64,000 nucleotides of DNA from Struthio camelus. Taxonomy: Eukaryota; Chordata; Aves; Struthioniformes; Struthionidae. A model generated the notes under the pieces. That model saw only the letters and a program-made list of their open reading frames with translations, was not told the origin of the DNA and did no database searches. The position numbers were made by a program, and so were the translations under genes. Positions 4,703-64,000 of this stretch are shown in pieces (position 1 is the first letter of the stretch; each line of letters begins with the position of its first letter). The stretch is from positions 25,727,068 through 25,791,067 of the forward strand of contig NC_090952.1 in NCBI RefSeq assembly GCF_040807025.1, given 5' to 3'.

Positions 4703-5296
4703 TTAGAAGATGACAACTAGAAACGAGAGAGACTTGCAAGTTAATGAAAAGCAGTGTTACACAGTGCATGAATACAGCAGTGCCCACTCTTCTGAACACC
4801 GCTGGAGTAAAACAAGGCCCCATAAGGCTGCTAGCAATAACCACGATGTGAAAAAGTCAGTCACCCCTACCCTGGAGATTACAAACCTCCTAAGCCAAAC
4901 AGCAGGCATGGGACGCAGCAGCAAACCTTTGGGCGCTCTCCATATCGTGTGCACGCTTCTCCACAGCACGGCCAACAGACCTGCCATCATAAAGGACGCT
5001 AGGGTATCAGAAGTGACCCAGGAATTAATTCAGAAGACTTCACATAGCTGTTCTGTGGTGTTCTCTTCCCTGCCTTTCACCTGACTGAAATAATCCGGCT
5101 TATCCTGTTCTTCTAAGTTGTTCTCATGCAGCTAACTCATCTTACATTTTTAAAAGCATCTTTTCTCTTAAGCACACAGAGGTTGCAAGGACACCTTGTT
5201 TGCTCTGTAGCTTGCACCTCAAACCAGATACCATCCCAAAGGGACAGCGGATGACAAGATGCAAGAATTTTGTCAGAGGACAGAAATGATCCACGT

Positions 5297-5322
5297 TACA
5301 CTATAACTATGGTTATAGTGTA
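5297..5322. repeat. Perfect 11-bp inverted repeat with 4-nt loop
   Basis: The arms TACACTATAAC and GTTATAGTGTA are exact reverse complements separated by TATG. It sits alone in ZMYM3 intron 1. No flanking target-site duplication or second copy was noticed. Confidence 0.8.
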
Positions 5323-8300
5323 GTCCCAAAACCACGTGGGCTAATATTCAGACACAGAAAAACTGGAAAAACTTAAGGTAGAACTGGAGGGAATTCTAGA
5401 CAGTGGCATGAAGAAAGGTGGGAAAGCCCATGATGTTACAAGCAGTTTTGAGAGGAAGAAAAGGTAGCAAAACAGTCCTAAGTGTGCAATGCAGAGTCAG
5501 GAAAAAAGACCAGTGAGACTTTGCACTGCACAGACAGCGCACTCGCACAGAGAGAGGTGATGCTGACTGCTAACATCAGAGGGACAAAATCACAGCCCAG
5601 CTCCTCATGCCTAAGAAAGGTCAACTTTATCAAACGCCAGAAAGGGCAAGACCATGAGGTGAGGCAAAAAAGCATTCATATCCATATTGGCGAATCGTTA
5701 AGTTATAACCCTGCAGAGAAAGGGTAAAAACCTAAAGAGGGGAACGGAAAGGGAGACAGAGTCCATAAGTGGCCAGGCAGAAAAAGACGTGATGTAGCAT
5801 CAGGTCCCCCAAACAGGTTGTAACTACGATAGCACAGGGAAGGCACTAGAAATGAAAGATGCGGCACCAGCCCACTTGCATGAATTTCACTGGTGACGGC
5901 TGATCAATTCCTTCTCTACACCCTTCTCTCCGAAAGGATAACAAAGTCGCACTTACGAGCAGTTTACTCAGAACTAGACAGGAAATAAGTGGATAGAGAA
6001 TGTAGCCACCTTCTGAAACTCAGTTAAGCAGGAATTCAGGAAATCATACCTACAGCTAGAGGGCAAAGTCATTACCTCTTATTTTTATCTGAAAACATAT
6101 CTGCCACTCTGAAATAGAAAATGCAGCTAAGCACTGTCCCCACAATCACAAACAGAGACTACAGAAGATGTGATCTTCAGAGACGCTCAGCAAGTTTCAC
6201 CAACGAAGACTTGGTTATTCCATTCACTGTCTTTAGTTACAGAGTAGACAAAGCTTCTACAATGAGCTAACTCCAGATCAATGTGAGAGCTAATATGTGT
6301 TTCAGGGTGACCAACAGGAAGAAGAACAAAGTGAAATAAAGACATCTGAAAGAAGTCGTAAAGGTTTGAGGCAGGTGAGAATCCTCCCAAGATGAGAAAC
6401 ATGTTTTTCTGCTTCTCTGAACATTAACAATACCTCCTTCTCAAAGATACACCTCAGCCAAGTTTCCATGCCTGTATGGAAAGACAGCAGACCTTACAAC
6501 AACAAGCAGCAGAAAGGTCAAGCCACCGAGATGAACAATAAAAGTATATTTATAAGTGTACTTAACAGAGGACTAAGATACTCCTCAAATTCACCTTCAG
6601 ACACTTTGCACAAGTCTGCAATGAATCCACAGAGCTCGTACTCCTACAGTCTTTGCCACTTTCAGCTGGCCTAGCCTTCATTTGGCAGAAAGAGACCCTG
6701 GGAACAATTTTGGAGCGTGAGGAATCCATGTTGGCATCTCCCCCTACGGGACAACACAAGCAACAGCCCATGAAAGCGTGGGGAGAGGAACTCGCCATTC
6801 TGCTCACATGTGCTCTACAGACAGACCAAAAGCAGCTGGTTTCAGCAACGTATACCTCCGCACTGCTTTCAAGCTCTGGCCGCAGGAGCGTTACAATGCA
6901 AGACAAGACTACGATAAACCTAACGACAAGGACGCACAGCCTTAAAGAGAACAACTATTCTGCAGATTAAATCAACTCCAAAACACTGCTATGTGGACAA
7001 GAAAGATCTAAAAGTCCACAGTAAGACCACTCACATGCAAGTTCTGGTTGGAAGCACAGCGTGTTCCTGTGAACCCGCATGTTCAGATTCCTATTTGCTT
7101 TCATGAACTTTGCCAGAATCTCCCCGGCAGAACAGCTCACGCGTTCCAGCGAACAGTTTAAAACATCTTCTTAGGTTGCGCAAGGCTAAGAACTGCTGCA
7201 GTCAGTCAAATGAAAGATCCAGCTATTCAAATATCCCATTTTCTATTGACAGCAAGAACGAATACCTGGCGGGAGAATATAAGAAACACCACTGACACAG
7301 GACGAGTCTCCTTCAGCATATCACCCAACCAAACGGCAATCAAGAAGAACCGCTTTGCATGAGTTGCATTGGGACTATCATTGTAAAGACTCTAATAGAC
7401 AAATCTGTCACGAATTTGCCAAATTCCCTTTCAAACCAATTTGTTTTGGGCCTCCACAAATTCCATTGGCAATAAGCTCTGCAACGTAACATTTTGTTCT
7501 AAAAAGATTTCATTTTGTTTACTTTAAGCCTGATGCATCAGAGCTCCATGACAATGAGACACAGAAACAGATGGATGCTAACATTTGACGCATTTATAGC
7601 ATTCTGGAAAAGCTGACAGAGTAGCACTGAGGCCGGACTTAAGCGGGAGATACTGACATGCAAGGAACGTCTCTGCACGTCACTGCAACTCTGCGCCCCT
7701 GACTGAAGTCTTTGCAGTGGCTTTCAACCACCAGAACCAAGAAGGCAGCCCTGTGGGAGGAAAACCACACTCCTTTCGCTCACCTGGGACTTTCAGAATC
7801 GTCTGGGCTTCCTGCTGAACTTCGCAATGAGTTCTGCTGCCAACTGAACGCGCACTTTTCCTCCTGGTCTCTTCTCACTGCCTCTAACAGAGGGGTAATA
7901 GCTTACTGGTTTTGGCAGATGCACCACATTTCGTCATCTTTTTTATTCCAGGGCTATCTAATGCACAGATCACTCACTGAGTTCTGGTCACAGCTCAGTC
8001 TGAAATCTTTCTCTTTTCTAGCCACACACATATCTGGCAGCAAGGAAAGTATGCTGGAACACAACTCAGCCAAACAGAGAGGAGACAGCGTGGTGAAATC
8101 CTGCACGTTTACAGAGGATGTGACTGCTCAATCAGACGTTTGGAAAGTCATTACTTTGGACTGGGCACCATCCTCTCCAGAGTATTCAGTAACTGTTGTT
8201 GCCGGGAAGATCGAGCTCAATGACTGTGAAGTCCTCGGCGCAACAATCAGAAGCAGAGTGCTTCTCAGATAGCACGTGAGAGATTCCAAGTAGCTGACGG

Positions 8301-13960: not shown

Positions 13961-14609
13961 CAGCGCGGCCGGGCGGGGCTTCCGCGGGGGCCCGGGACGC
14001 GGCGCCGCCCCCGGGAGGGGCTGCCCCGGCCCCCGGCCCGCGCCCCGCCCCCTCGCGCTCCCCTCCCCCACCCGCGCCCCGCCCCCCCGGACACCCCCCG
14101 ACCGGGCTCCCTTCCCCCACGCCGACATATTCCCCCTCCCCCGCTCCCCACTCGTGACGTCGCCCCGGGCCACACCCCCCCCACTCGGGCTCCCGCTGCC
14201 CCCTCTCACGGGGCGCGCAAGCCCCTCGTGTCCCCCCCCACCCTCCATCTCGAGGCTCCTCTCCCCTCCCCACCCCCCCCGGATCCGGCAGGGACACGGG
14301 TGGGCGGCCGCCGCCGAGGGAGCAGCGCCCCCCGCGGGTCGGGGCAGCGGCGCAGCCCCCCGGCCCCAGCGGCTGACGGAGGCGTGGGGGGGGGGGGGAA
14401 GGGGGCCGCCAGGCGCCCTCGGGGCGCGCTGCCGCCCCACGGGGGGTTACAGGGCTGCGACACGGCGCCCACCGCAGCACAGGCGGCAGCGGCCGTTACA
14501 GGGCCGCCCGTGGGCCCCCCCGGGCCTCGCGCAGCTCCCGCCGCCCGTGAGGGGAAGGGGCGGGGGGAGGGGGCGTCGCGCCGCGGCACGCGCTCGGCCC
14601 CCGCCGCGG

Positions 14610-15298: not shown

Positions 15299-18200
15299 AT
15301 GCAGGGCAACAAGGGTTTCAACATGGAGAAGCAGAACCACGCGCCGCGGAAGCAGCACCAGCACCAGCAGCACCCGCCGCCGTCCATCCCCGCCAACGGG
15401 CAGCAGGCCAACAGCCAGAGTGAGTCCCGGGCCCGCCGCGCTCGAGCCCCCGCTTCGTGCTGGCGTCGGGCGGTCGCCCGTGCCGCGCAGGGTAACTCGG
15501 GCTCCTGCCGCTGCTCGTGCGTGCAACAGGTCTCGGCGAAACCAACAGGATCGGCTCTGTCCGCGGCGAACAAAAAAAGCTCGAGTCTCCCAGCGAGCCG
15601 CTGTTTGCCTTCGCTGCCCTCCTGCAATTTCCCGTTGTTGGAGACGGTGGTTTGCGCTGCAGCCAGTCTTTCACTCTGTCTAGGCAAAGGTGCTAAGCGC
15701 TTGCAGCTCCTGTAGGTTTTCACGGAGATTTGTTTGCAAGTGCTCGATGTTCTTGAAATTGGGCGTTGATTTTCAAGAAAAACTCGCTTGGAGAGTTTGA
15801 AAGTCTCTGAGTTCTTAATAGCGTTGCTTAAACTACAAACATGAGATGGCTTATTTCAGTTGGCTCTCTTTCCTTTTTTTCCCCAACCGTAACGGAGAAC
15901 TTCTCAGCACAGACTTCTTTAAGTACTAGGGGAGTAGATCTGCTATTTGTAAAGAAGCTGTTTTAAAAAAAAAGGTTGTTAGACGGTTCTGTAGCTACTA
16001 ATTAAGACCAAATTTTTTGCGCAGGAGGGACAGGGAGATACCTAGTTTTATTTTTTTATACTTCGGCATCCAAGGGCCGAAGTAACAGCTGACGCTGGCC
16101 TTAACTCTAATTTCTGAGTTTGTTCTTATTCAGTTTGTGTGGACTAATTCTCTGTTACTTGGGATTCAGTGATAGCGACTGTAAGCTGAGGCAGCATATA
16201 TTAATGAGCTCTAGGGCCTTAACTGATCTAACTTGATAGTTTAGAAATATGACATCAGGACAGTGCCATTAATGTTTTCATGTGCAGGGGGAAAGGAGGT
16301 GCCCTGTTGTGTTCCTTTTAAGAAAAAAAAAAAAAAAAAAACCTTGTATATGTGCCTTGGCTGTCTATTCAAAAGTTTCCCCTCAGCTTAATATACTTTT
16401 TGTTGTTTTGCATACTTCCTCTGTGTATTTTTTTTTCGTGTCCTAGTTGCAGGTTTGACCTGCCCCTCCTGCTCCCCACACATGCACATACTGGGCTAGT
16501 ACAAACTTCCTAGATATGTTTATTGGATGACCCTGTCAAATAGATTCTTTATCTAAAGTTATGATAGGTTATAGAATAAGATGCTGACTAGTTCATTTCG
16601 AGTCAAGTTGGGAACGATACACTACAACAACTGTGTTGTTGTATTCTCGCAGGGATCAACTTATAGTGACTGACTATATCTAAGATTCCTTTGAGTGGAT
16701 CTTATTAAGGCAAACCAGTGGCATTGGTATAACTGGGCCTTAAGTTTCTTTTAGTCTATTTGCAGGCCTTGAAATCGATCCCCAAATACTTCTGAGAATG
16801 GCCTGAAAGTGCACAAGAAAAACACTTCACCTATGTGCTGTCGCTGTGCTGAGTAGATAACTTCATTTTCTGTTCACTAGTCTGTAACAGATGTACTGTC
16901 AGTCTCATTTTGATCTTAGCCTTTGGAGGTGTGCTTACACTTATACAGGGGTTGTCCTTAACCTTTGTCTTTCCATGAATCGCCTTTCCTCGTCATGCTT
17001 TGCAGCCTGAATCAGATCACTCACGTTTGTAGTTTATTTCATCCGTGTGGCCATGAAGTGCATCCCTTGAAAAGCACAATTTGAATACGAATTGATCTGC
17101 AAGCTGCTTGGGTCAAAAGATGAATCAAAGAGAGAAAAAAGGGGTTCAAAAGGAGCAAAAGACAGAATGGAAATGGTGGAATTGCTTTCTGCGGGTGGCT
17201 GTCCTCTGTGGGTAGGTTCTGCATGCGTTTCAGAAAAGGGGACACGGAGGTAAACTGATGGTAAAGTCATGCTTGTGCCTGGCTGTTGAACAGGGCTTCC
17301 AAGGTCAGGCTGTTGAGGTGAAGGTTAAAGGTGAAAGACTCTTGCTGAGAGGAAAGTTAAGGAGTATGTAGGATATACCGTGTGGGGATTTGAGGATGGT
17401 CCTACAGTCAGACCTGTTTATCAGTGTTAGATGTGGCACAACTTACTGAATACAGATTGCATAACAAGCTTCGTCATTTTTCTGAGGTCTTGCCTACGTA
17501 GCTGTTTTTATTGTTTTCTCTATTTTCACCTGTCCAGCCGTCTCTTCAGCTGGGGACCCAAGTCTCTAGAACCCAAATGCCATCCAGTAGGATGCTTGCT
17601 AGTTACAGTATCACCTGTCTGGGCGAAATGTCACATCTTTAGTGTAGTTTTCTAGATTTGTCTCGTTGCAATAAAAATCTGGTTGCTGGCAAAACTGCAG
17701 CTTTCCTAGAGATATTCAGGTCGTAAGAGTAGAATCCTGTATTCCAACCGCTACTGCTTTACTGTGGGCCCGTCGTCTTGACCAGAGCTCTAAAAGTCGA
17801 TTGAAATCTCTCACGTTATTCCAAGCTGCAGTGTTTCTATTTTCTCCTGCTCTAGACTTTCCTTCACTGGTGTTAACGAGCACTGGAGTTCGAGCACGTG
17901 TTTTCTCTAAGGAGAATATCGTCCTGTTCTGAAGTTACGTGCCTTTGTTGCTCTAGAGATGGCTGGAGAGGTTTGAGAACAGAGTGAATGAGTGGCATCA
18001 CCTATATTATCCTGTGTATCTGCATTCACTGTAATGTAACCTAATGGAATTTATCCCCCCAACTGTAGAGCAGCTGTGTACCTTATTCCCCTCAGATGAA
18101 GGCCTGACTATTGACCTGAAGAATTTCCGGAAACCTGGTGAAAAGACCTTCACCCAAAGAAGCCGCCTATTTGTGGGGAATCTGCCCCCAGATATTACGG

Positions 18201-21200
18201 AGGAAGAGATGAGAAAGTTATTTGAGAAGTATGGGAAGGCAGGTGAAGTCTTCATACACAAGGACAAAGGCTTTGGCTTTATCAGGCTGGTGAGTGACTG
18301 TTGCTACCTTTGGAATGTTTCTGCGGCAATGATCCTCACACTGGAGAAGTATTGCTAGTTGGAAGTAGTAGATGTTCAAGTATCTTGCCTGCTGTCAGTT
18401 TTCCAGGAATATGGGATCTGCTTCTACAAGTAGTTTGGTCAGAGCCTTTTATAAGAAGGAATGTGAATGTGAACTCAGGCAGCTTGTGGCATGATTTATG
18501 AGGTATCTGGTAAAAGTCATTCTGAAATCAACTGGTAGAAAACAGAAGGAAGACATGGACGTGATGCTGTTGTAGAGAAGGTAGACTTCCACTTTCTGGA
18601 AGGGTGTGAGGATGAGGTTTCTGTGAGCATAGATTATCATGCAGTACTACTGGAGTGACAGACGCTCTTGAGGCAGGAGATCTCCAGATGATCACACTGA
18701 AGCATGGCCAGGAGGAGCCAACACAGAGCAACAGTTCTCAACTTCATTGACTCATGTACTACCTCTCTGAGAGCTCCAAGGTGTCCAAGGCGAACGGTTG
18801 GAGCATGAGGTTCCCACGCCAAAGTTTGGGGGTGCCTTGCTGTAGCGTAACTGCTTGGCAGTAACTTAAAGGGTAGGAAACTGGGAAGAGGTATGGGGGC
18901 ATCTTTCAGGAGCTCTTCTATAGTGAACGTTTGCTTTTACAGTTACCAGACTTGGCTAATAGTTGAATCTTGGAGAAAAAAAAAGGGCTCGCTTTGAGGC
19001 CCAAATGTAATTATGTTTGATAGATAATGATCGGTTAATTGTTTGCTTAGTTAGTACTGACTGTTGGATTAAGCTTATGTCTGTTACGGTTTTCTTTCCC
19101 CCAAACTCTGTTTATGCCTATTCAGCTAGAGTCATTGATAACAGAGAATAGCTACGTTTTGTCAGGGCATTTTTTACCATGCTGTGGGAGGATTATTTGT
19201 TCCTCTCTGTGAAGTACTTGTTCAGGGGAAATAGGCTTTTGACCCTCTGTTGTGTCTGTGACTGGCTAATTCCATCCTGCATTGAGAGTTTTAATGATAA
19301 CTTTTTTTATCTTTAGGAAACTCGCACTCTGGCAGAGATTGCAAAGGTGGAACTAGACAACATGCCTCTACGTGGGAAACAGCTAAGAGTGCGTTTTGCA
19401 TGCCACAGCGCATCGCTGACAGTCAGGAACCTGCCTCAGTTTGTGTCCAATGAGCTCCTGGAGGAAGCCTTCTCTGTGTTTGGCCAGGTGGAAAGGGCTG
19501 TGGTTATTGTGGATGACAGAGGACGATCCTCTGGGAAAGGCATTGTGGAGTTCTCAGGGAAGCCTGCTGCTAGGAAAGCCCTGGATAGATGTAGTGATGG
19601 GTCTTTCCTGCTAACTACGTAAGTGCGGAGGGTGAGAAGTGCTATTCTGGTATGTGTGCAGGTTGAGGGGTGGCACTGGCTTGTGAGCAACATTTCTTAA
19701 TGCCAGAGTGGGGCGTATGAGACATGGGACAGGACGTGGTAGATGGTTTTGCCCGAGGAGAATTTTGCTTAGCTTCCGTTTGGACAAGTCTGTGCTGAAA
19801 CTCAGGTCTGAAAACTTTATTCTGGGAGGCCGCTAGTGGGGTAAGTGCATAAAACTGTCCAATAAGGTCTTTGTTGAAAAAGCCTTCTTAGGGCAATTAA
19901 AGCAGCCTTCCACAAGCGGGAACTACTTTAGAGACTATCCTTCTTGTTTGAAAGTGAATCTCAAGTGTGTTAACTGTGTGCTCTGGGTAACTTCAGAGCT
20001 GAGTCTAGGAATGGGACTCCCCTCGGCAGAGTGCACCGCTAATTTGGAATGCTTATCCATCGCCGTCACGGGGCACAGGATCTATCTGAGAAGCTATTCA
20101 AATGGGTTGGATTGTTCTGGGTTTTGCCCGTAGTAAACCATCTTCACTGTGCTTGAATATCACAAGACAGCAAAGCAGACTCTTGGAAAAGTATATGAGT
20201 GTGCTTGAATAAATAGCTAATTCTAGAACACGTTCCACAGAGCATGGCTTGTTGCTGTAACAGTTAAGGGAGGGACCTCTTTTGACCTTTGAGGAATATA
20301 AAAATACTGTGTATTTTGTATACGTGCTCATAGCATTTGATAATGGAACGCTTCCTGAAATCAAGGCTATATTGTTAGTTTCTAAAGTAACTTGGAAACT
20401 TTGTGCCTTCTCACTTCCCACCTTTTTCCTAGGGGGCTGCATATGACACAGCAGTACACAAGCACGTTCAGTTTCAAAAAGCAGCGCTCTCTCTCTTTTT
20501 TTTTTTTTTTTTTTTTTCTCCCTCATTCCTCTTTTCTTCCCTGAGACTCTTTGGGCACAGCCATCACAGTGTTTAGTGCTCTGCAGTAACATTGCTGCTG
20601 GGAAACTTTGAGGCTCTCTTAGCTTATTGGAATTATTTAGTCCCAGCGCTCTTGCTGATTCAGAAGTATATATCTTGAAAGAACCATGAAAACAAGTTTT
20701 AAAAAGTCGCCATGCAGTACTAAGCACTGCTAGTGTGTGACTTTGGCTCAGAGGGGAATATTCACTCTTGTTCTAGTTATCAGTGCATTAGTTCCTGATT
20801 ATATCAGGGAGCCAAACCAGGGTGTTGCTTAGTTCTAGTTGAGGTTTGGCTCTGATTAAAGTTGTTCTGATTGGTCTTAGTTCGTGGAAGTAACAGCTAG
20901 GTAACCTTAAACTCATTGAAATTGGTGCACCTTGGAAAATAAGACTGTTATTAATGGAACATGTCACAGTAGAAAAATTACATTATGAAGCTTCATCTGA
21001 GGAAAGATATTATAGCCTCCCATATCCTGTCTTCTTGCCGGAGTCTGGGCACCACTTGCGCTTTTGAAAAGCACGAATGTTTCTTTCCTGTTTACCTAAC
21101 TGTCAAAGGAGGTTGAGGAGCTAAAGAGAAGCTGTTGTGATGAGGGCATGAGCAGTATCAGTGCTGTGGTGGGGGAGTTAATTCAGAGGTAAGGGACTAA

Positions 21201-24200
21201 TCCCACTTTCCTCTGTTAAATGCATTCCTCTACACAGAGAGGCCAGGGGGACAGAAGGACACGTGCAGTGTCTGTACTGTAAAGTGCACCAGTGGATTTC
21301 TGGTGGGGAAATTCAGACAGGGCCCAACAGGCACCTACAGAGCACTGCTATTGGCAGTAACAGCACACGGTTGCCTCACCAAGAGAAAAGGAATGAATGA
21401 TACAGTCACGATCCTCCGGCGAGTAGCAGGGTAGTTAGACCTCACCTTGGGGTCTAGCAGACAAGGGCTTGTGTAGCACGTGGTCATCGGCCATGAATCA
21501 AGGGAGGAACGGGAGAAAAGACAGACTCTGGGGTCCAACAGACCTTGCGCTGAGTAGATCCTACTAAGGGAATGTCAATTTTCAGTTCAGCTGTTATTTT
21601 GAACCAGTAACTGGAGTATTCTTCTTTTGGTGCAGTTTGTTTTGGATCCAACAAGGATTTCAACTAACACTTCAGTTCCTGTTCTAGAAAAAAAAGCGTG
21701 TTCTAAGTGATTTCTGTTTTCTGTTTGGTTCGGACCCCTGGCTACTTTGAATCTCCTTGAGCGCTGCTAAAGCAGTGTTTTATAAAGTCCAGGCAAAACT
21801 GTACATGCTTTCCTGCACAGCAAACTTATTCCCGAGTTGTCCTGAAAGCACCTCGTGTTTTATTCGTAGGTTCCCTCGGCCTGTCACTGTGGAGCCCATG
21901 GATCAGTATGATGATGAAGAGGGACTACCAGAGAAACTGGTCATCAAAAACCAGCAGTATCACAAGTATGTGCTTCCTGTGAGAAAGGAGATGAGACTGT
22001 CTGTGGCCTAGGACATTGACTGGGTGCCTCAGTCTTTAGGGGTGTGGCTCGTCAATGCTACAAAAAGCTCCTCCTCTTTTTTTTTCCTGTAGATGTGATC
22101 TGACTCTGAAAAGAGAATGGCATGCACTGGTCTTTTGCTGTGGTTAGCTGAAAGAAAGCAGAGCTTGTGGATTTATGCTTTCATTTAGCTTTGTTGGATA
22201 AGCCTAGCAGCATCCACATATTTATCATAAGTGTTTGTATGCCTCCGTTGCTGGAGTCAAAATTGGTATCAACGTTTGAGATATCTGTTCAAGGGGCAGG
22301 CACGTGTGAGAAGCTGAGAGAATGAGTTGTGTTACTTGCTCGAAGTCCTGTAGAAAGTCTGTGGAGCAAACAGGCTTGAACCCACAGTGAAAGTAGAAGG
22401 AATTATGTGGATAGCATTAAGAGATTGTAGAGCTATCCAGGTATAAAGCCATGGTCTTTGAAGGCTTCTCGGTTTAAGTAGGTATCATAAGATCAGAGTC
22501 ATGGGAATTAGTAAACCATGTGACCTCGTGAATTTTTCAAGTAGGGAAGATGGGAGCTGCAGGAGCAGGGAAGCTGCCTTAGGAATAGTGGGATGTTCCA
22601 GGTGCAGGGGCTGCAGAGATGAGTGAAATAAGCATGCGTCTTTGGCGGGGCTGTTTCTGGTGTATTTATGGGGTGGGTCTATAGGTGGGATAAGATGTGC
22701 AGCAGGAGCAAAGGCTGTTTCTTGCAGAGTATTCCTAAATGTCTTCTATCCAATAACTTTTGGTGTCTTATGAAAGCATTGTCATTGCTTGGTATGGGGG
22801 AGGACGGGACAGTTTCTGTGCATAATTAATCCTGTAAGAGAAAGGTCTGTGGATTGGTAAGAGGAGAGCGTTTCTAGGATTCTACCTAAATTTCTCCTTT
22901 CAATAATGTGTGGTGTTTTTTTTTTTTTTTTTTTTTTTTCCCCTGAGGAACAGATAAACTGGTATCTCAGGTGCGGCTTTTCATAAGAAACCAGAGGACA
23001 AAGTGGTTTGTTATCTGCTACAAAGAGAAATAGGTTTCTAATTGTTAAAAGGACCTGCCGTCGAATTTACATACGTACTGTATTTTTCCTAGTTCCTCCT
23101 TGCGCTGTTGAAGCATTCACTAGCTTTTCCTTGTCTGACAGGGAGCGAGAGCAACCTCCTCGATTTGCACAGCCTGGCAGCTTTGAGTATGAGTATGCTA
23201 TGCGCTGGAAGGCTCTAATAGAAATGGAGAAGCAACAGCAAGAACAGGTAGACCGCAACATCAAGGAAGCTCGAGAGAAGCTGGAAATGGAGATGGAAGC
23301 AGCTCGCCATGAGCACCAAGTTATGCTCATGCGGCAAGGTACCAGTCAAAGATAAACATGATATCAAAACAAGACCCTGCTAAGTTCAGGGCTGCGTAGC
23401 TTAACAGACTAGAGCTGGCTGAAGATGAACCATGGCAAAGCTACTTGACTTCTAACCAGCCATAGCAGTATCAAATAAATGTGGAGATGTTGCTGTATTG
23501 CTGGCAGCTCTTTTACCTTATTCTCTTCTGCGATACAGTTTTAGTTAGGAATTGATGAGTGGTGGTAGAGGAGACAAGAGTTTGGTTGTTTTTTTTACTG
23601 TCATCTTTGCAGACTTAATGAGACGCCAGGAAGAACTGAGGAGAATGGAGGAATTGCATAACCAAGAAGTACAAAAACGTAAACAATTGGAACTCAGGTA
23701 AGGGGGCAGATTTTGAAATTCTGTGAACCCATGATATTCTGGAACTGAAGCACCTCTTCAGTGCGCTTAATTGCTCAGGGTGACAATTTAATTACTACCT
23801 AAAAAGTGGTTGTTACTTCAGGCTTTTTTTTTTTTTTTTTTTTGCTCATAGGGAGAGTGTACGGTTGGTTTAAGATGCAAGAGGTAGGAGTTTCTTCCAC
23901 TGATGATGAAGGACACAGACTAGCATTTCTTTTTTTACGTTTCGGTGTCTCAGTCTAGCACCGTGACTGAGGCCCGTAAAACAATCAGAACACGTACAAT
24001 GATTCGGTGACTTTAGTGCTGCAGGTTGGGAAACCGCATTCTAGCATCTGTCCTCTCAGTTGAGAGGTAACTTAGCCTCAGACATTACTCTTGCTGTTCC
24101 AGCTCTTCCTTGTCTCAGGGTCATTGTGAGAAGCTCCAGACTACTTGTATGTATAGAAGAGACTTGACAGCTGTCTGTGGCCATTATATTACGTGTAGTC

Positions 24201-52789: not shown

Positions 52790-53365
52790 ATGCAGACAAT
52801 AAAGTGCGTAGTTGTCGGAGATGGCGCTGTGGGAAAAACTTGTCTTCTCATCAGCTATACCACCAATGCCTTCCCAGAAGAGTACATCCCTACTGTGTTT
52901 GACAACTACAGTGCCCAAATGACTGTCGATGGCCGGACAGTTAGCCTGAATCTCTGGGACACTGCGGGCCAGGAGGAATACGACCGCCTGCGCACGCTCT
53001 CCTATCCTCAAACCAATGTGTTTGTCATCTGTTTTTCCATTGGTAGCCCCTCTTCCTATGCAAATGTGAGGCACAAATGGCATCCTGAAGTTTCTCACCA
53101 CTGTCCTAATGTTCCCATTCTTTTAGTGGGCACCAAGAGAGACTTGAGAAATGATCTGGAAACAGTTAAAAAATTGAAAGAGCAAAGCTTGGCTCCCACT
53201 ACCCCGCAACAGGGGACTTCACTGGCAAAACAAATTGGAGCAGTCAAATATTTGGAGTGCTCAGCATTGAATCAGGAGGGTGTTCGGGAGGTGTTTGCTG
53301 AAGCTGTGCGTGCTGTTCTGTATCCTGTGACAAAGAAGAACACGAGAAAATGTGTCTTATTGTAG
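52790..53365 (+). CDS. Rho-family small GTPase, RHOG-like
   Basis: This is a 191-aa intact small GTPase in one exon. The acceptor TTTGTGCAG at 52768 leaves 21 nt of 5' UTR before the first ATG. Guanine-nucleotide motifs are complete: P-loop GDGAVGKT (10-17), switch [10 protein letters not shown] with Thr35, [17 protein letters not shown] with Gln61, TKRD (115-118) and [22 protein letters not shown] is the RHOG form, not the RAC form (RPLSYPQTDVFLICFSL). From memory it is about four-fifths identical to human RHOG. The C-terminus has Lys/Arg residues before a CVLL box, predicting geranylgeranylation and membrane attachment. RHOG itself also has a single coding exon, so lack of coding introns does not make this a retrocopy. 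A function in RAC activation through ELMO/DOCK is inferred from family. The exact paralogue is not settled, so no symbol is given. Confidence 0.93.
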
Positions 53366-57295: not shown

Positions 57296-57546
57296 TCTCG
57301 TGGGGCCGTGGGGCGGCGGCCGGTGGGGCCGTGGGGCGGCGGCCGTTGGGGCCGCTGGGCGACCGTTAGGCGGCGGCCGTGGGGCGGCGGCCGTTGGGGC
57401 CGCTGGGCGACCGTTAGGCGGCGGCCGTTGGGGCCGCGCGGGGGCGCTCTTTAGCCCGAGGCGGGGGCGCGCGGCGGCCCCGCCCCGGCAGGGAGGGCGG
57501 CCCGGTTCCGGTTCCGGTTGGGGTTCGGTGCGGCGGCGCCGGCGAG
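57296..57546 (+). promoter_or_regulatory. TAF1: TAF1 promoter with a 48-bp tandem repeat
   Basis: The CpG island begins abruptly after the polyA signals. A 48-bp unit (starting GTGGGGCGGCGGCCGTTGGG) occurs at 57331-57378 and 57379-57426, with partial copies on either side. Just before the ATG, GGTTCCGGTTCCGGTTGGGG gives ACCGGAAC cores on the minus strand, resembling ETS sites. No TATA box is visible. The start site is probably within 57440-57530 (inferred). Confidence 0.55.
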
Positions 57547-60500
57547 ATGTCGGACTCGGAGAGCGATGAGGAGGCGGAGGGCGGCCGCCCCGAGCCCTTC
57601 TCGCTGGCCGGGTTCCTCTTCGGTAACATCAATGAGGCGGGGCAGCTGGAGGGGGACAGCGTCCTGGACAAGGTAGCGCCGCCGCCGCCCGCTCCCTGGT
57701 GCCGGCGCCGGGGAGGCGTCGGGTCTGCTGGGCCCGGCCCGGCCTGGCCGTCGGCGCGGGCTGCGGGACGGCGGGTCCCGCGGGAGCGGGCGGCTCCGGG
57801 ACGGGGGGTCTGGGGTGGAGGTCCCGGGGGTGCGGGCTGCGGGACGGGGGGTCCGGGAGGGAGGTCCCGGGAGTGCGGGCTGCGGGACGGGGGGTCCGGG
57901 GAGGAGGTCCCGGGGGTGCGGGCTGCGGGACCGGGGGTCTGGGGAGGAGGTCCCGGGGGTGCGGGCTGCGGGACGGGGAGTGTGGGGGGGAGGTCCCGGG
58001 GGTGCGGGCTGCGGGACGGGGGGTCCGGGAGGGAGGTCCCGGGAGTGCGGGCTGCGGGACGGGGGGTCCGGGAGGGAGGTCCCGGGGGTGCGGGCTGCGG
58101 GACCGGGGGTCTGGGGAGGAGGTCCCGGGGGTGCGGGCTGCGGGACGGGGAGTGTGGGGGGGAGGTCCCGGGGGTGCGGGCTGCGGGACGGGGGGTCCGG
58201 GAGGGAGGTCCCGGGAGTGCGGGCTGCGGGACCGGGCGTCTGGGGGGGAGGTCCCGGGGGTGCGGGCTGTGGGACGGGGGGTCCGGGGGGGAGGTCCCGG
58301 GGGTGCGGGCTGCGGGACGGGGAGTCCGGGGAGGAGGTCCCGGGGGTGCGGGCTGCGGGACGGGGGGTCTGGGGAGGAGGTCCCGGGGGTGCGGGCTGCG
58401 GGACGGGGGGTCTGGGGAGGAGGTCCCGGGGGTGCGGGCTGCGGGACGGGGAGTCTGGGGAGGAGGTCCCGGGGGTGCGGGCTGCGGGACGGGGAGTCTG
58501 GGGAGGAGGTCCCGGGGGTGCGGGCTGCGGGACGGGGAGTCTGGGGAGGAGGTCCCGGGGGTGCGGGCTGCGGGACGGGGGGGTCTGGGGGGGAGGTCTC
58601 GGGGGTGCGGGCTGCGGGACGGGGGGTCCGGGAGGGAGGTCCCGGGGGTGCGGGCTGCGGGACGGGGAGTCCGGGGAGGAGGTCCCGGGGGTGCGGGCTG
58701 CGGGACGGGGGGTCCGGGAGGGAGGTCCCGGGGGTGCGGGCTGCGGGACGGGGAGTCTGGGGAGGAGGTCCCGGGGGTGCGGGCTGCGGGACGGGGAGTC
58801 TGGGGAGGAGGTCCCGGGGGTGCGGGCTGCGGGACGGGGGGTCCGGGAGGGAGGTCCCGGGGGTGCGGGCTGCGGGACGGGGAGTCCGGGGAGGAGGTCC
58901 CGGGAGTGCGGGCTGCGGGACGGGGAGTCTGGGGAGGAGGTCCCGGGGGTGCGGGCTGCGGGACGGGGGGTCCGGGAGGGAGGTCCCGGGGGTGCGGGCT
59001 GCGGGACGGGGGGTCTGGGGAGGAGGTCCCGGGGGTGCGGGCTGCGGGACGGGGGGGTCCGGGGGGGAGGTCTCGGGGGTGCGGGCTGCGGGACGGGGGG
59101 TCCGGGAGGGAGGTCCCAGGAGTGCGGGCTGCGGGACGGGGAGTCTGGGGAGGAGGTCCCGGGGGTGCGGGCTGCGGGACGGGGGGTCCGGGAGGGAGGT
59201 CCCGGGGGTGCGGGCTGCGGGATGGGGAGTCTGGGGAGGAGGTCCCGGGGGTGCGGGCTGCGGGACGGGGGGTCCGGGAGGGAGGTCCCGGGGGTGCGGG
59301 CTGCGGGACGGGGAGTCCGGGGAGGAGGTCCCGGGAGTGCGGGCTGCGGGACGGGGAGTCTGGGGAGGAGGTCCCGGGGGTGCGGGCTGCGGGACGGGGG
59401 GTCTGGGGAGGAGGTCCCGGGGGTGCGGGCTGCGGGATGGGGAGTCTGGGGAGGAGGTCCCGGGGGTGCGGGCTGTGGGACGAGGGGTCCGGGGGGGAGG
59501 TCCCGGGGGTGCGGGCTGCGGGATGGGGAGTCTGGGGAGGAGGTCCCGGGGGTGCGGGCTGCGGGACGGGGAGTCTGGGGAGGAGGTCCCGGGGGTGCGG
59601 GCTGCGGGACGGGGAGTCCGGGGAGGAGGTCCCGGGGGTGCGGGCTGCGGGACGGGGAGTCCGGGGAGGAGGTCCCGGGAGTGCGGGCTGCGGGACGAGG
59701 GGTCCGGGGGGGAGGTCCCGGGGGTGCGGGCTGCGGGACGGGGAGTCTGGGGAGGAGGTCCCGGGGGTGCGGGCTGCGGGACGGGGAGTCTGGGGAGGAG
59801 GTCCCGGGGGGTGCGGGCTGTGGGATGAGGGGTCCGGGGGGTGTGGGCTCTGGGATGGGTTTCCAGGGGGTTCGATCTCTGAGACAGGATGAGCTGGGCC
59901 TGGGGAGGTCCAGGTGGTACAGGCTCTGAGATGGAGGGTCTGGGCATGCGAGCTCTGAGACAGGATGAGCTGGGCCTGGGGAGGTCCAGGTGGTGCAGGC
60001 TCTGAGATGGAGGGTCTGGGCATGCGAGCTCTGAGACAGGATGAGCTGGGCCTGGGGAGGTCCAGGTGGTACAGGCTCTGAGATGGAGGGTCTGGGCATG
60101 CGAGCTCTGAGACAGGATGAGCTGGGCCTGGGGAGGTCCAGGTGGTGCAGGCTCTGAGATGGAGGGTCTGGGCATGCGAGCTCTGAGACAGGATGAGCTG
60201 GGCCTGGGGAGGTCCAGGTGGTGCAGGCTCTGAGATGGAGGGTCTGGGCATGCGAGCTCTGAGACGGGATGAGCTGGGCCTCGGGAGGTCCTGGGGGTGC
60301 AGGCTCTGGGACGGGGGGTCCCGGGAGTGTGGGCTCCGGGATGGGGGTTGCAGGGGTGCAAGCTCTGAGACAGGATGAGCTGGGTCTGGGGAGGTTCCGG
60401 GGGTGGGGGCTCTGGGATGGGGGGTCCCAGGGGTGGGGGCTCTGGGATGCGGGTTGCAGGGGTGCGAGCTCTGAGACGGGATGAGCTGGGCCTCGGGAGG

Positions 60501-63475
60501 TCCTGGTGGTGCAGGCTCTGGAGGGGGCCCCGTGGGTGCGGGAAAGCGACGGGCCAGGGGGTGAAGGGATGCTGGCGGTGCAGGCTCTGTGCCAGGACTG
60601 GACCGGGGGAAGGTCCTAGCGGTCTGGGTTCCAGGACAAGACCAGGCAGCAGGTGCTGGCTCTGGGATGGGACGAGATGGCTGAGGGCTTGGCCTGGCTG
60701 GTGGAGCTGAAGGACTCTCCCAGTTGGGATGTGGCTCTGGTCCCTCTAGGAGTCCAAGAAGCACCTGGCTGGGTTGGGTGCCCTGGGACTGGGCAACCTG
60801 ATCACTGAGATCACAGCCAGCGAGGACGATAATGCGGAGGGTGATGGAGCTCATCTGGATGAGGAAGGTGAGGCCCCAGGTTAGCTCGAGTTAAATGATG
60901 GAGAGTCATCAGTTAAATGTGGGATCAGAGCTCTTCTCAGAGGAGATAAAACACACCCAGGTCTTCTAGAGCTGCAAGGAAATCATGATATTATCTGGTC
61001 ACAGCTCATCTGACAAAGGCCTCACCTCCTTTTTCTTGCCTGAGTTAATGCCACCTTATCTCCTGGTGCTTTTGTACATGCTCTCTTATTCTCTTCAGTT
61101 TTTCACTTCTTGTCTCTTTTTCCTCATAAATAAATTTATTCTATATTTTTCCTTGTCTTAAATTCTTACAGCCCTATTCAGCACCCAGACTATTATTATA
61201 ATTTCTTTTGGTTCTTGAGCTTGTTGAACAGTCTCACTGAGTAAATGAAAGGTCTCTCTTATGCTAAAGCTGGTTACTTCTTACCAGTCTGTATGGGTAA
61301 TTGAAAAGTGTTGGAGCTGTTGGCTGGAATGAAGGGAAAGAAATCTTCTGATGGGAGAAGTTAATCAAATGTTTTTTTTCCCCTAAGAAAAGGAAACATA
61401 GGGAAGGAGTCATATGGGCATAGTGAAGTCAGATGTTAGTAATATATATCAAAATGAAGTGTTGCATGACTAGATTTTTTTTTTCTCTTCTCAGGTTGGG
61501 TTAAGAGCACAGAAGATGCTGTTGATTATTCAGATATTAATGAAGTGGCAGAAGACGAGAGCCGTAGGTATAAGCAAGCAATGGGCAGCCTTCAGCCAGT
61601 TCGAAGACCAGGTAAATGGGATAAGCATTACTTAAAAGAGGCTGAGGCGACTGGCAGCTAGTGGTATGTGTTTGGGGCAATTGTCTTGACACTGGTTCTC
61701 TTAAAAGTATGTTATTGCGCCCTTCTCGCTTGTTACTTCAAGAATCTAAGCTTTTGGGAGACCTTGTTCACCGGATAAAGGCCCTGCTAGATATCTTCTT
61801 TTTTTAAGGGCTGAGTTGCTCTTCAAAGTTAAACTGTACTCAGAAGAGAAACCAGGTTCATTCTTTTGCCATGGGATCCCCTGCAGAGAATACTTGATAC
61901 CTGCTGATCTTTCTTTAACCTGTGTTCATAGGAGCAGAACTATGCAGACAGTCAGCTCCTTCTCAGAGATTAATCAAAGACAGAGTTGAGATCCTGATCC
62001 CTTAATGAGTCGCTTCAACCGTAGTATCTCTCTCCTGTTTTCCCCATACATCCTTTTGGCAAAAATCACTGCTCCCCAGAAGGCACTTTGGTTCTCTTGT
62101 CAGTTCCAGAGCGCTCTGGCAGAAACAAATCTTCAAACATCTGTGGCTTTTCCCTTTCAGTAGTTGCTAGTGCAATTGCTGAATCTTTTGCTTAGCTCTT
62201 AAAGTTGCGTTATACTTAACCTTTCTGTTGTCTTATTGTGACTGATGGAATGTAAAGTTGATTTGAACTTTTTCAACCTTATTTTCTTATTTCTTAAGCA
62301 GCATTATTAGCTCTGCAAAGCTTGAGTAAAGAGGGGTGATGGCAGTATGTTTCTTTTCTTCTTCTTCTTCTTCTTTTTTTTTTTTTAAGTGCTCCAGCCT
62401 GCTTGCTATCAGTTTACCTTTATCCCTCCATTCCACTCTTTCTTAAATTCCAATTTGGAAAGTGGTTTCGTGCGGGGGAAGTTGAAGTTGTGAGAGTTTT
62501 GGGTCTAGTTCAGAAGAGAGAATGGTCATCTTGCTAAGCTAGCATTGACCGTGTCTGCAGGTTGGGACAGAGGAGATGATATAGCTGGGAGGGCTATCTG
62601 GTTCCCTTTTATTATCAGCTTAATATGCAGTCTTGTCTCCGGGCTGGTTAGATGACGATGAGGATGATTACGATGCTGACTGTGAAGATATTGATTCCAA
62701 GTTGATGCCGCCACCGCCTCCACCTCCAGTACCTGGAAAGAAAGAAGATGAAAAGGATGCAGCTGCCACTGGTGAGTGAGGGCTTTCTTCTCTCTGACAA
62801 TATGAAATGTCTGAAGGAAGCAAACGCTGCTGCACAGCAGTTCGTTCTACGGCAAGCACCCACGCGAGATCAAAGTTCTAGCTGGAGACTGCATCTGAAG
62901 GTGGGTCTTTGTCCTGATATGCAATGAAATGGAACTGTCTGAAATGAGCTCTTAGATTAAAAAATAGAGTGAAATATTATATTTCCAGTGATTGATAAAA
63001 TACTGATGTTCACAATGAAACTGCTTTTTTATCTCATCCTCTCAGTTGTGGCTGGGAAATTCACCTGGAACGCTTAGGATAAAATGACAGGTTAAACCAG
63101 AATGGTACTCGTAACAGTTACAGAGGCTTAAGCTTTGTATAATTTGAGCTATGCAGTAGCTGTGGCATTATGGGGTTGTACTAGGGGACAGGGAGGAAAC
63201 TTGTTTGTTTATAAGGTGCTTGTTCTATTGTAGTATCTGAAGATGGAGACGGTATCATTTTGCCCTCCATCATTGCTCCTTCCTCTGCTGCCTCCGACAA
63301 GGTGGATTTCAGCAGCAGCTCTGATTCTGAGTCAGAGATGGGACCTCAAGAAGCCAGGCAGGCAGAATCCAAGGAAGGCAAACTCACACTTCCTCTTGCA
63401 GGAATCATGCAGCGAGATGCTACCAAACAGTTGCCAAGTGTTACAGAGCTCTTCCCGGAATTTCGGCCAGGAAAG
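57547..63475 (+). CDS. TAF1: Transcription initiation factor TFIID subunit 1, 5' exons (partial)
   Basis: This is the largest TFIID subunit, a nuclear scaffold with a TBP-binding N-terminus and, further on, the DUF3591 and tandem bromodomains. Five coding exons are present: 57547-57672, 60750-60867, 61495-61611, 62652-62771 and 63234-63475. All have AG/GT borders and matching phases, giving 241 aa of about 1,880. The first exon gives [13 protein letters not shown], then [12 protein letters not shown] and [11 protein letters not shown] (the TAND region that contacts TBP). Next come [18 protein letters not shown], then [34 protein letters not shown] with a seven-proline run, and LPSIIAPSS...[10 protein letters not shown] up to [12 protein letters not shown]. 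The start matches the internal MSDTDSDED start of human TAF1; the longer human N-terminal leader was not seen. The gene continues past the right edge. Intron 1 is 3.1 kb and mostly tandem repeat. Confidence 0.96.
57757..59832 (+). repeat. 43-bp G-rich minisatellite, 46 countable units, in TAF1 intron 1
   Basis: The unit begins GTGCGGGCTGCGGGACGGGG and continues with AGTCTGGGGAGGAGGTCCCG then GGG. Units run from 57830 to 59810: 1,981 bp, which equals 46 x 43 plus three extra G residues (near 58580, 59050 and 59805). A decayed lead-in at 57757-57829 and one decayed trailing unit flank it. Variants differ at a few positions (AGTCT or GGTCC, GGAGG or GAGGG, CCGGGGG or CCGGGAG). The unit contains no stop codon on either strand. 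Confidence 0.97.
59878..60257 (+). repeat. 76-bp tandem repeat, five units
   Basis: TCTGAGACAGGATGAGCTGG starts units at 59878, 59954, 60030, 60106 and 60182, exactly 76 bp apart, and the next start is at 60258. Units are nearly identical. One A/G site (GTGGTACAGG or GTGGTGCAGG) alternates across the first four, suggesting a 152-bp dimer was duplicated. Confidence 0.95.
60258..60530 (+). repeat. 106-bp tandem repeat, two units plus a partial
   Basis: TCTGAGAC(A/G)GGATGAGCTGGG recurs at 60258, 60364 and 60470, 106 bp apart. Each unit is the 76-bp module with about 30 bp more, including GGGGGTCCC and GGGTTGCAGGGGTGC. These resemble the 43-bp array (GGGACGGGGGGTCC), so the three arrays look like branches of one G-rich seed. 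Confidence 0.85.
60868..63233 (+). other. TAF1: TAF1 introns 2-4
   Basis: The spaces between the TAF1 exons (60868-61494, 61612-62651, 62772-63233) are ordinary AT-rich intron. A (TTC)n/T-run microsatellite lies at 62351-62386. I see no other gene or mobile element. Confidence 0.6.
62351..62386. repeat. (TTC)n microsatellite running into a T-run
   Basis: Six or so TTC units are followed by about 13 T residues in TAF1 intron 3. Confidence 0.85.
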
Positions 63476-64000
63476 GTATTGTAAGAGATATGGGGAAGCG
63501 ACAGAAACTCTGTTATATGAGCCCTCTAAGAATGAATGATAAAGTATTAAGGGTATGTAGCCCGTAATCACTTAGGTGTTCTGGCTTATCTCACCGTTTT
63601 CTGTTTTCGTTTCTGTGGGCTGCTGTTTCCGGGCTACTTTACATGCAGTGCTTTTCCTGCCATTGTAGGAGCCTTTTTAAAAAATGTCATATAAATCAGG
63701 GTGTGAAATCATGTTTTGCTGTTGTTTAGAACCGTGGCACGGATCTCTTGAGATGTTTTTTTCCTCTGGTGGAGTAGAGAATGCTTTTCAGATGGTTCAA
63801 AAATGGAATGATAACTTAATCTGCTTGCTTTCTGGCTTTTCCACCAAATGCTTGCTCCTCTCGTGTTGTTCTGAACTTGGTGTGCTCTTCCTAAAACAAT
63901 TTGCAAGGTCTGTATCCTTTATTTAACTCTCCCTCAAAACCACTGTGATTATGGATCAGAGATCCTATCAGTAACAATTTGGTTGAAAGAATGATGGAAC
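63476..64000 (+). other. TAF1: TAF1 intron 5, open at the window edge
   Basis: The donor GGAAAG|GTATTG at 63476 opens it. No further TAF1 exon (expected to continue VLRFLRLFGPGK) is present before 64000. Confidence 0.7.

Follow-up and report, generated by a model that had tools for sequence, protein, structure and literature searches.

In birds, the introns of dot-chromosome genes can be filled with local GC-rich expansions, a phenomenon described as 'sequence stuttering' (Hron et al., 2026; PMC12954441). According to the description given there, stuttering introns vary in length among chickens and are sometimes copied from exons; replication stress at GC-rich or G-quadruplex (G4) DNA, or meiotic conversion, was put forward as a speculative cause. 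The exon-stuttering screen reported in the same paper placed 190 of 236 introns on dot chromosomes and 46 elsewhere. Here we describe a candidate intron of this kind in the ostrich, Struthio camelus. It lies in a 64,000 nt stretch of contig NC_090952.1 (positions 25,727,068 to 25,791,067; hereafter the window, whose own numbering is used for all coordinates below) and is the first intron of TAF1. Much of it consists of a tandem array of a 43-bp unit, which the original prediction had singled out as a minisatellite open in all six reading frames. We consider this array to be, with high probability, a non-coding, GC-skewed minisatellite located directly 3' of a CpG-island start region.

TAF1 intron 1 (57673-60749, plus strand, 3077 bp) resembles the stuttering introns, as Hron et al. 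describe them: GC-rich tandem blocks, each tens of bases in size, take up the intron, are composed of imperfect units, are mostly recognised by Tandem Repeats Finder (TRF) and are enclosed by intact exons. By TRF coverage, tandem repeats make up 88.7% of its length. There are two differences. The locus belongs to a contig of 29,763,035 bases (C11) and not to a dot chromosome, which in the published description is an association rather than a definition, and the intron has no copies of exon ends, an occasional feature of stuttering. Derivation of the repeat from an exon (exon stuttering) was considered and rejected: the best blastn alignments with the intron scored 19.3 bits for exon 1 and 17.5 bits for exon 2, to be compared with the published threshold of 42.1 bits. 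Judging by analogy, TAF1 intron 1 appears to work like a stuttering intron and can be regarded as a candidate member of this group, which is the closest known system. Literature searches found no paper on an avian GC-rich intronic minisatellite with a G-quadruplex, and among the matches listed for TAF1, minisatellite and intron none concerns this intron. Such introns are little studied, perhaps because GC-rich 5' regions were, according to PMC9516821, frequently absent from older assemblies.

The array can be called intronic because TAF1 exons flank it on both sides with splice borders. The coding part of exon 1 (57547-57672, plus strand) ends with GDSVLDK; this exon piece aligns to TFIID subunit 1 in PDB (41.4 bits) and carries the TBP-binding domain PF09247 (Pfam, E 6.8e-10). 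The intron borders read from the sequence are the donor AAG/GTAGCG at 57673 and the acceptor CTCTAG/GAG at 60750, and they keep exon 2 (60750-60866, plus strand) in frame. Exon 2 was itself read from the sequence, was outside the PDB query and is named by its place between the matched exons and by its resemblance to TAF1 sequence. Exon 3 (61495-61612, plus strand) was identified by its PDB match, has a provisional 3' border and is followed by further exons. The joined exon translation (197 aa, without exon 2) matches TFIID subunit 1 in PDB with E 7.6e-86. In Pfam, no match of its own was obtained for exon 3 or for the exon piece at 63215-63481. Around exon 1 the GC content is 0.75-0.79 and the observed/expected ratio (o/e) of CpG is about 1, as in a CpG island. 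The array starts 245 bp downstream of the TAF1 ATG.

TRF confirmed the existence of the array, reporting it as a single one (57792-59839, period 43, 47.6 copies, 92% matches). Cutting at a fixed anchor yielded 47 units over 57792-59815 (plus strand), 44 of them 43 bp long and three, at 58566, 59040 and 59772, 44 bp long with an extra G each. The consensus unit consists of 27 G, 8 C, 5 T and 3 A. The units comprise 19 distinct sequences, and the mean pairwise identity among the 44 units of 43 bp is 0.934. The units at 58566 and 59040 share a C-to-T change, so their insertions are likely copies of one event, and the three G-insertion units may go back to just two insertion events. The 43-bp repeat had originally been placed at 57757-59832; this holds for 57792-59815, while the edges are formed by units of another type, a 33-bp unit upstream (57759-57791) and a 30-bp unit downstream (59816-59845), both on the plus strand. 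With tandem units in the 10-100 bp range, many copies and variants, the array is a GC-rich minisatellite. It shares its unit scale (43 bp), its 47 copies and its variant repeats with GC-rich variable number tandem repeats, and its unit structure is undistinctive; compared with ordinary minisatellites, it is notable for its place right after exon 1 and for complete strand asymmetry.

The repeat appears to be local. A search of the ostrich genome with a dimer of the 43-bp unit returned at least 21 matches, all in this locus among the matches listed. The exact 28-base unit pattern had no matches in either the viral or the prokaryotic contig collection, where little was expected given the nature of these collections, and none of 4227 known RNA families reached its gathering threshold in the window. 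As GC-rich repeats are error-prone, the copy number could also be an artefact of assembly, produced by collapse or inflation. We find this very unlikely: the 19 unit types follow one another in mixed order, the flanks are unique with intact exons, and the whole-genome matches listed point to no other place.

Related units surround the array. Units of the 30-bp type border it at both edges; the upstream one lacks a 13-bp piece of the 43-mer, and the downstream one contains a TGA at 59826. From 59846 to 60521 (plus strand) there follows a related array in which 29/30-bp and 47-bp relatives alternate (TRF periods 76 and 106); it is CpG-poor and has stops on the plus strand. At least eight matches were obtained when the genome was searched with this downstream unit, and those listed are all in TAF1 intron 1. 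The 30-type units at 57759, 59816 and 60302 align to the 43-mer with a single 13-bp gap at the same place, scoring 23-28 against shuffle maxima of 12.5-16.5. The founder was probably a 30-bp unit, which survives on either side of the array and again farther 3'. The 43-bp form would then have arisen from it by a gain of 13 bp, and would have been amplified to 47 copies beside exon 1.

The feature that first drew attention to the array, its openness, has a simple basis. On both strands, the trinucleotides TAA, TAG, TGA, TTA, CTA and TCA are absent from 57757-59832 save for the single TGA at 59826. All six frames are indeed open across the 43-bp units; over exactly this interval five of six are, the TGA closing one plus frame. 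Openness follows from the composition of the unit, which has only 3 A and 5 T. Since 43 is not divisible by three (43 = 3 x 14 + 1), the three frames of each strand read one common cycle of 43 residues, as had been pointed out, and the single-G insertions leave the frames open, shifting only the phase of the cycle. The two peptides quoted in the original prediction recur in every frame of their strand: the Gly/Arg-type one of 12 residues 9, 9 and 5 times in the plus frames, the Pro/Arg/Ser-type one of 17 residues 3, 5 and 6 times in the minus frames. Writing in the Journal of Molecular Evolution in 1984, Ohno reportedly noted that repeats of base oligomers with a length not divisible by three encode one periodic peptide in every frame. 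The periodicity is the same here; Ohno's was a general argument on the origins of coding sequences, and the present case is an observed locus.

Several comparisons indicate how unusual such openness is. When the consensus was shuffled (20,000 shuffles of each kind), a fraction of 0.51 of the mononucleotide and 0.69 of the dinucleotide shuffles were stop-free on both strands. Among the 43-mers with 33-37 G+C elsewhere in the window (4380, overlapping), 55% would be open in six frames if repeated. Four of 11 other TRF units in the window are stop-free in six frames; these 11 were picked by hand, one per locus, from 28 other rows, with overlapping rows, one period-6 row and the rows starting from 59795 and 60251 onward dropped. 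A stop would be created by 12 of the 129 possible single substitutions of the unit but the 43-bp units contain 14 distinct substitutions without a single stop among them, an outcome with a probability of about 0.26.

The same picture is obtained outside the window. We sampled 160 kb of the genome in 16 stretches, 15 of them at the 1.0-Mb mark of contigs and one 3.9 kb past the window, and reduced 170 TRF rows to 69 non-overlapping arrays, mostly concentrated in a few stretches. Consensus units were stop-free in 13 of 27 arrays with a unit GC of at least 0.7, in 7 of 25 with a unit GC of 0.6-0.7, and in 6 of the 9 arrays that have 10 or more copies. A 10-kb stretch dense with minisatellites (L011, C16:1000001-1010000) includes a 57-bp array of 24 copies (1116-2506) with a stop-free consensus, open over 449-463 of 463 codons, as well as a 43-bp array (5291-6629, 31 copies), unrelated to that of TAF1, whose consensus is stop-free too. 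Two further stretches (L015, C24:1000001-1010000, and L020, C33:1000001-1010000) are each filled wholly by a 31-bp GC-rich satellite with about 322 copies; the two consensus units are reverse complements of each other and stop-free in six frames. Over the six frames, the stop-free runs extend for 844-1320 codons in L020, 730-1158 around the window array and 337-1053 in L015, so that in most frames the runs of L020 are longer than those of the array. Thus, repetition of the unit exceeds chance and six-frame openness does not; such openness is ordinary for GC-rich repeat DNA of this kind. With a base rate of 13 stop-free units in 27 high-GC arrays, no coding explanation is called for.

It had been argued that translation of the repeat RNA in any frame would give the same protein, and that the array could readily be taken for a gene. 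The latter warning is right. On the plus strand, the TAF1 ATG frame runs through the donor into the array (57547-59892, 781 codons, stop TGA at 59890-59892) and would be used only if intron 1 were retained. The longest antisense open frame (57414-60854, minus strand, 1146 codons from ATG, Pro/Arg/Ser-rich) takes in all of intron 1 together with exon 1 and a portion of exon 2, and has no Pfam match. Annotators should be warned of these mechanical open reading frames (ORFs), which cover a probably non-coding repeat. Searching the 781-codon ORF also returned DUF6052 with 57.1 bits against a cut-off of 25 (E 2.4e-15) and no single stretch passing; it was taken as a low-complexity artefact.

On paper, the sense product (696 residues, counted from residue 86 onward) consists of 40% Gly (277) and 13.5% Arg (94), the antisense product (682 residues) of 39% Pro (267) and 12% Arg (81). 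The all-frame openness, the G-rich sequence in a first intron and the Gly/Arg and Pro/Arg products on paper are reminiscent of the C9orf72 GGGGCC intron-1 repeat, a hexanucleotide with pathogenic expansion and demonstrated repeat-associated translation; the TAF1 array differs from it in unit length, and its translation would be hypothetical. A frame open from the TAF1 ATG to the TGA at 59890 and units open on both strands are what a translated repeat would offer, be it a 781-residue Gly/Arg-rich protein made by intron retention or a product of repeat-associated initiation on either strand. However, openness of this extent is expected by chance, and plausible splice sites are present on both sides. 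Neither a unit length that is a multiple of three nor frame-dependent constraint, the marks of a protein-coding repeat, was found: the period is 43, and variant cells number 31, 30 and 32 at the three codon positions (p 0.97), with no visible coding constraint, an even spread that is weak evidence either way because it is forced by the period. With the intron retained, moreover, a stop would precede the later exon junctions, so that such a transcript should be degraded by nonsense-mediated decay. We regard translation of the array as unsupported and its occurrence as highly improbable. If there were any, its simplest route would be retention of intron 1 with a start at the TAF1 AUG, and a repeat-associated start would be unneeded. 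A tissue-specific fusion of the TBP-binding N-terminus of TAF1 to about 700 Gly/Arg-rich residues, arising in this way, is the most novel form of the idea and a very improbable one; if it existed, any variation in repeat length would be tolerated without a frameshift inside the array. To summarise the fate of the original claims, the array is real, its openness is ordinary, the warning about a false gene was right and the idea of translation is unsupported.

What distinguishes the array is its strand asymmetry. TAF1 has the G-rich strand of the repeat as its non-template strand, and the GC skew amounts to +0.47 to +0.54 over the array (250-bp steps). The segment 57792-59859 holds 51 of the 78 plus-strand G4 motifs of the window and none of the 13 minus-strand ones. 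G-cluster zones here extend for 1353 and 745 bp, while other plus-strand zones outside intron 1 do not exceed 119 bp; it is this length, and not the hybrid score given below, that is unique. In nearest-neighbour calculations, the difference between RNA:DNA and DNA:DNA duplexes was -0.446 kcal/mol per bp for sense RNA in the array, compared with -0.071 for the window and -0.169 for antisense RNA of the array. When 200-bp windows were ranked by this hybrid score, 1762 of the top 1800 had their centre in the array. The predicted fold of a four-unit sense RNA changes from -80.9 to -88.4 kcal/mol when G4 is allowed (a gain of 7.5), while the antisense RNA gives -41.9 without any gain. Strong positive skew and G clusters are found here, downstream of the presumed transcription start, as in R-loop-forming GC-skewed promoter regions.

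The best measured analogue found is the CGG repeat of FMR1, where R-loops were reported at the promoter-proximal repeat (PMC3990486). To judge from that report, the two loci have in common a promoter-proximal CpG-rich repeat, a G-rich nascent RNA and a hybrid with the template strand; they differ in that the FMR1 repeat is a 5'UTR microsatellite with a measured R-loop, while that of TAF1 is an intronic 43-bp unit for which the R-loop is predicted. We propose that transcription of TAF1 would put the G-rich strand into the nascent RNA and into the displaced non-template DNA, and that RNA:DNA hybrids and G-quadruplexes may form on the array, aided by recombination of the promoter-type CpG island. 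These structures would in turn invite repair and slippage, by which units could be added, removed and homogenised, and the same open chromatin would keep the array unmethylated. The repeat RNA would leave with the spliced intron. The R-loop/G4 step itself we put forward tentatively, with somewhat less than even confidence; turnover of the array, whether through such structures or through instability linked to recombination, is probable.

CpG states were compared at three sites with counterparts in both unit types; the comparison excluded a fourth site (columns 34-35) as well as the 76-bp composite at 59846. CG is kept at 133 of 141 sites in the 43-bp units and at 9 of 48 in 16 related downstream units. 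Of the downstream sites that are not CG, 37 of 39 read TG or CA, which is what decay of methyl-cytosine produces. In the 43-bp array itself, four of the five TG sites fall within the last 15 units, and when all four CpG sites are considered in the 44 units of 43 bp, 167 of 176 are CG. The change near 59.8 kb is sharp (TG/CA at 37 of 48 sites in the units of 59816-60496), looking like a germline methylation boundary. The pattern is compatible with an unmethylated island that reaches to about 59.8 kb.

Retention of CpG up to the end of the 43-bp array, the distance of 245 bp from the ATG and the extreme GC skew could also be features of a selected regulatory element, which would lengthen the unmethylated island or pause the polymerase after exon 1 and in this way tune the TAF1 dose. 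This seems unlikely. Elsewhere in the window, four stretches that separate TAF1 exons contain 0% tandem repeat, so TAF1 introns do not generally need repeats.

More weight should be given to a neutral minisatellite generated by recombination or replication, in which the CpG island of TAF1, in a PRDM9-less bird, would undergo breaks and GC-biased repair with the array as a by-product, and transcription, R-loops and G4 would play no role. Its setting speaks for such an origin, as the array adjoins the GC-rich, CpG-retaining stretch around exon 1; recombination in the zebra finch is reported to be enriched at CpG islands without PRDM9 (PMC12047795); and GC-rich arrays are common at unselected genome sites, though clustered in few of the 16 stretches sampled. 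Taken by itself, this explanation does not account for the G-rich strand being the non-template strand throughout (GC skew about +0.5). A single locus cannot settle the matter of strand bias, since either orientation has a 50% chance. We treat the neutral origin as a real possibility, though not the favoured one.

Some observations weigh against the transcription-linked minisatellite that we prefer, or against the ordinariness of its open frames. An array may be interrupted even though its consensus is free of stops: variant units of the 43-bp repeat in L011, which is unrelated to that of TAF1, carry stops, and the longest open runs there are 190-446 of about 446 codons. In the TAF1 array, by contrast, all 47 units are stop-free. 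The order of units gave no evidence of higher-order copying, the best lag match of 7 being equalled by 702 of 2000 shuffles. The energy score of the hybrid is not specific to the array, because an antisense peak near 14004 (minus strand), where the DNA is GC-rich from 12 to 16 kb, is of similar strength with -0.466 kcal/mol per bp, the strongest antisense score of the window. Finally, the CpG pattern could equally be read as a young 43-bp array or as a gain of CpG in the 43-bp form, and the 141 CpG sites are not independent, the units being copies of each other.

Other features of the window are as follows. On the promoter/5'UTR side, upstream of the TAF1 ATG, TRF found a 48-bp GC-rich direct repeat of 2.3 copies (57327-57438, plus strand) with two stop trinucleotides per unit. 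Further upstream, MYM-type zinc fingers (PF06467) are encoded at 97-1845 on the minus strand, by exons that we take to be ZMYM3-like, and RRM and NOPS exons (Pfam) at 18035-23352 on the plus strand presumably belong to a NONO-like gene. A RhoG-like GTPase of 191 codons is encoded by a single coding exon at 52790-53362 (plus strand; PDB 6uka, E 2.1e-103), between the RRM/NOPS exons and TAF1. ZMYM3, NONO and TAF1 are neighbours on the human X chromosome, where the interval that corresponds to the RhoG-like gene is occupied by ITGB1BP2.

With its open frames explained by composition, the remaining interest of the locus is that a general transcription factor gene has a first intron made mostly of a 2-kb, G-skewed, CpG-preserving array placed after exon 1. 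TAF1 intron 1 could thus provide a clean natural experiment on the question of whether repeats near promoters are held unmethylated and unstable by R-loops coupled to transcription.

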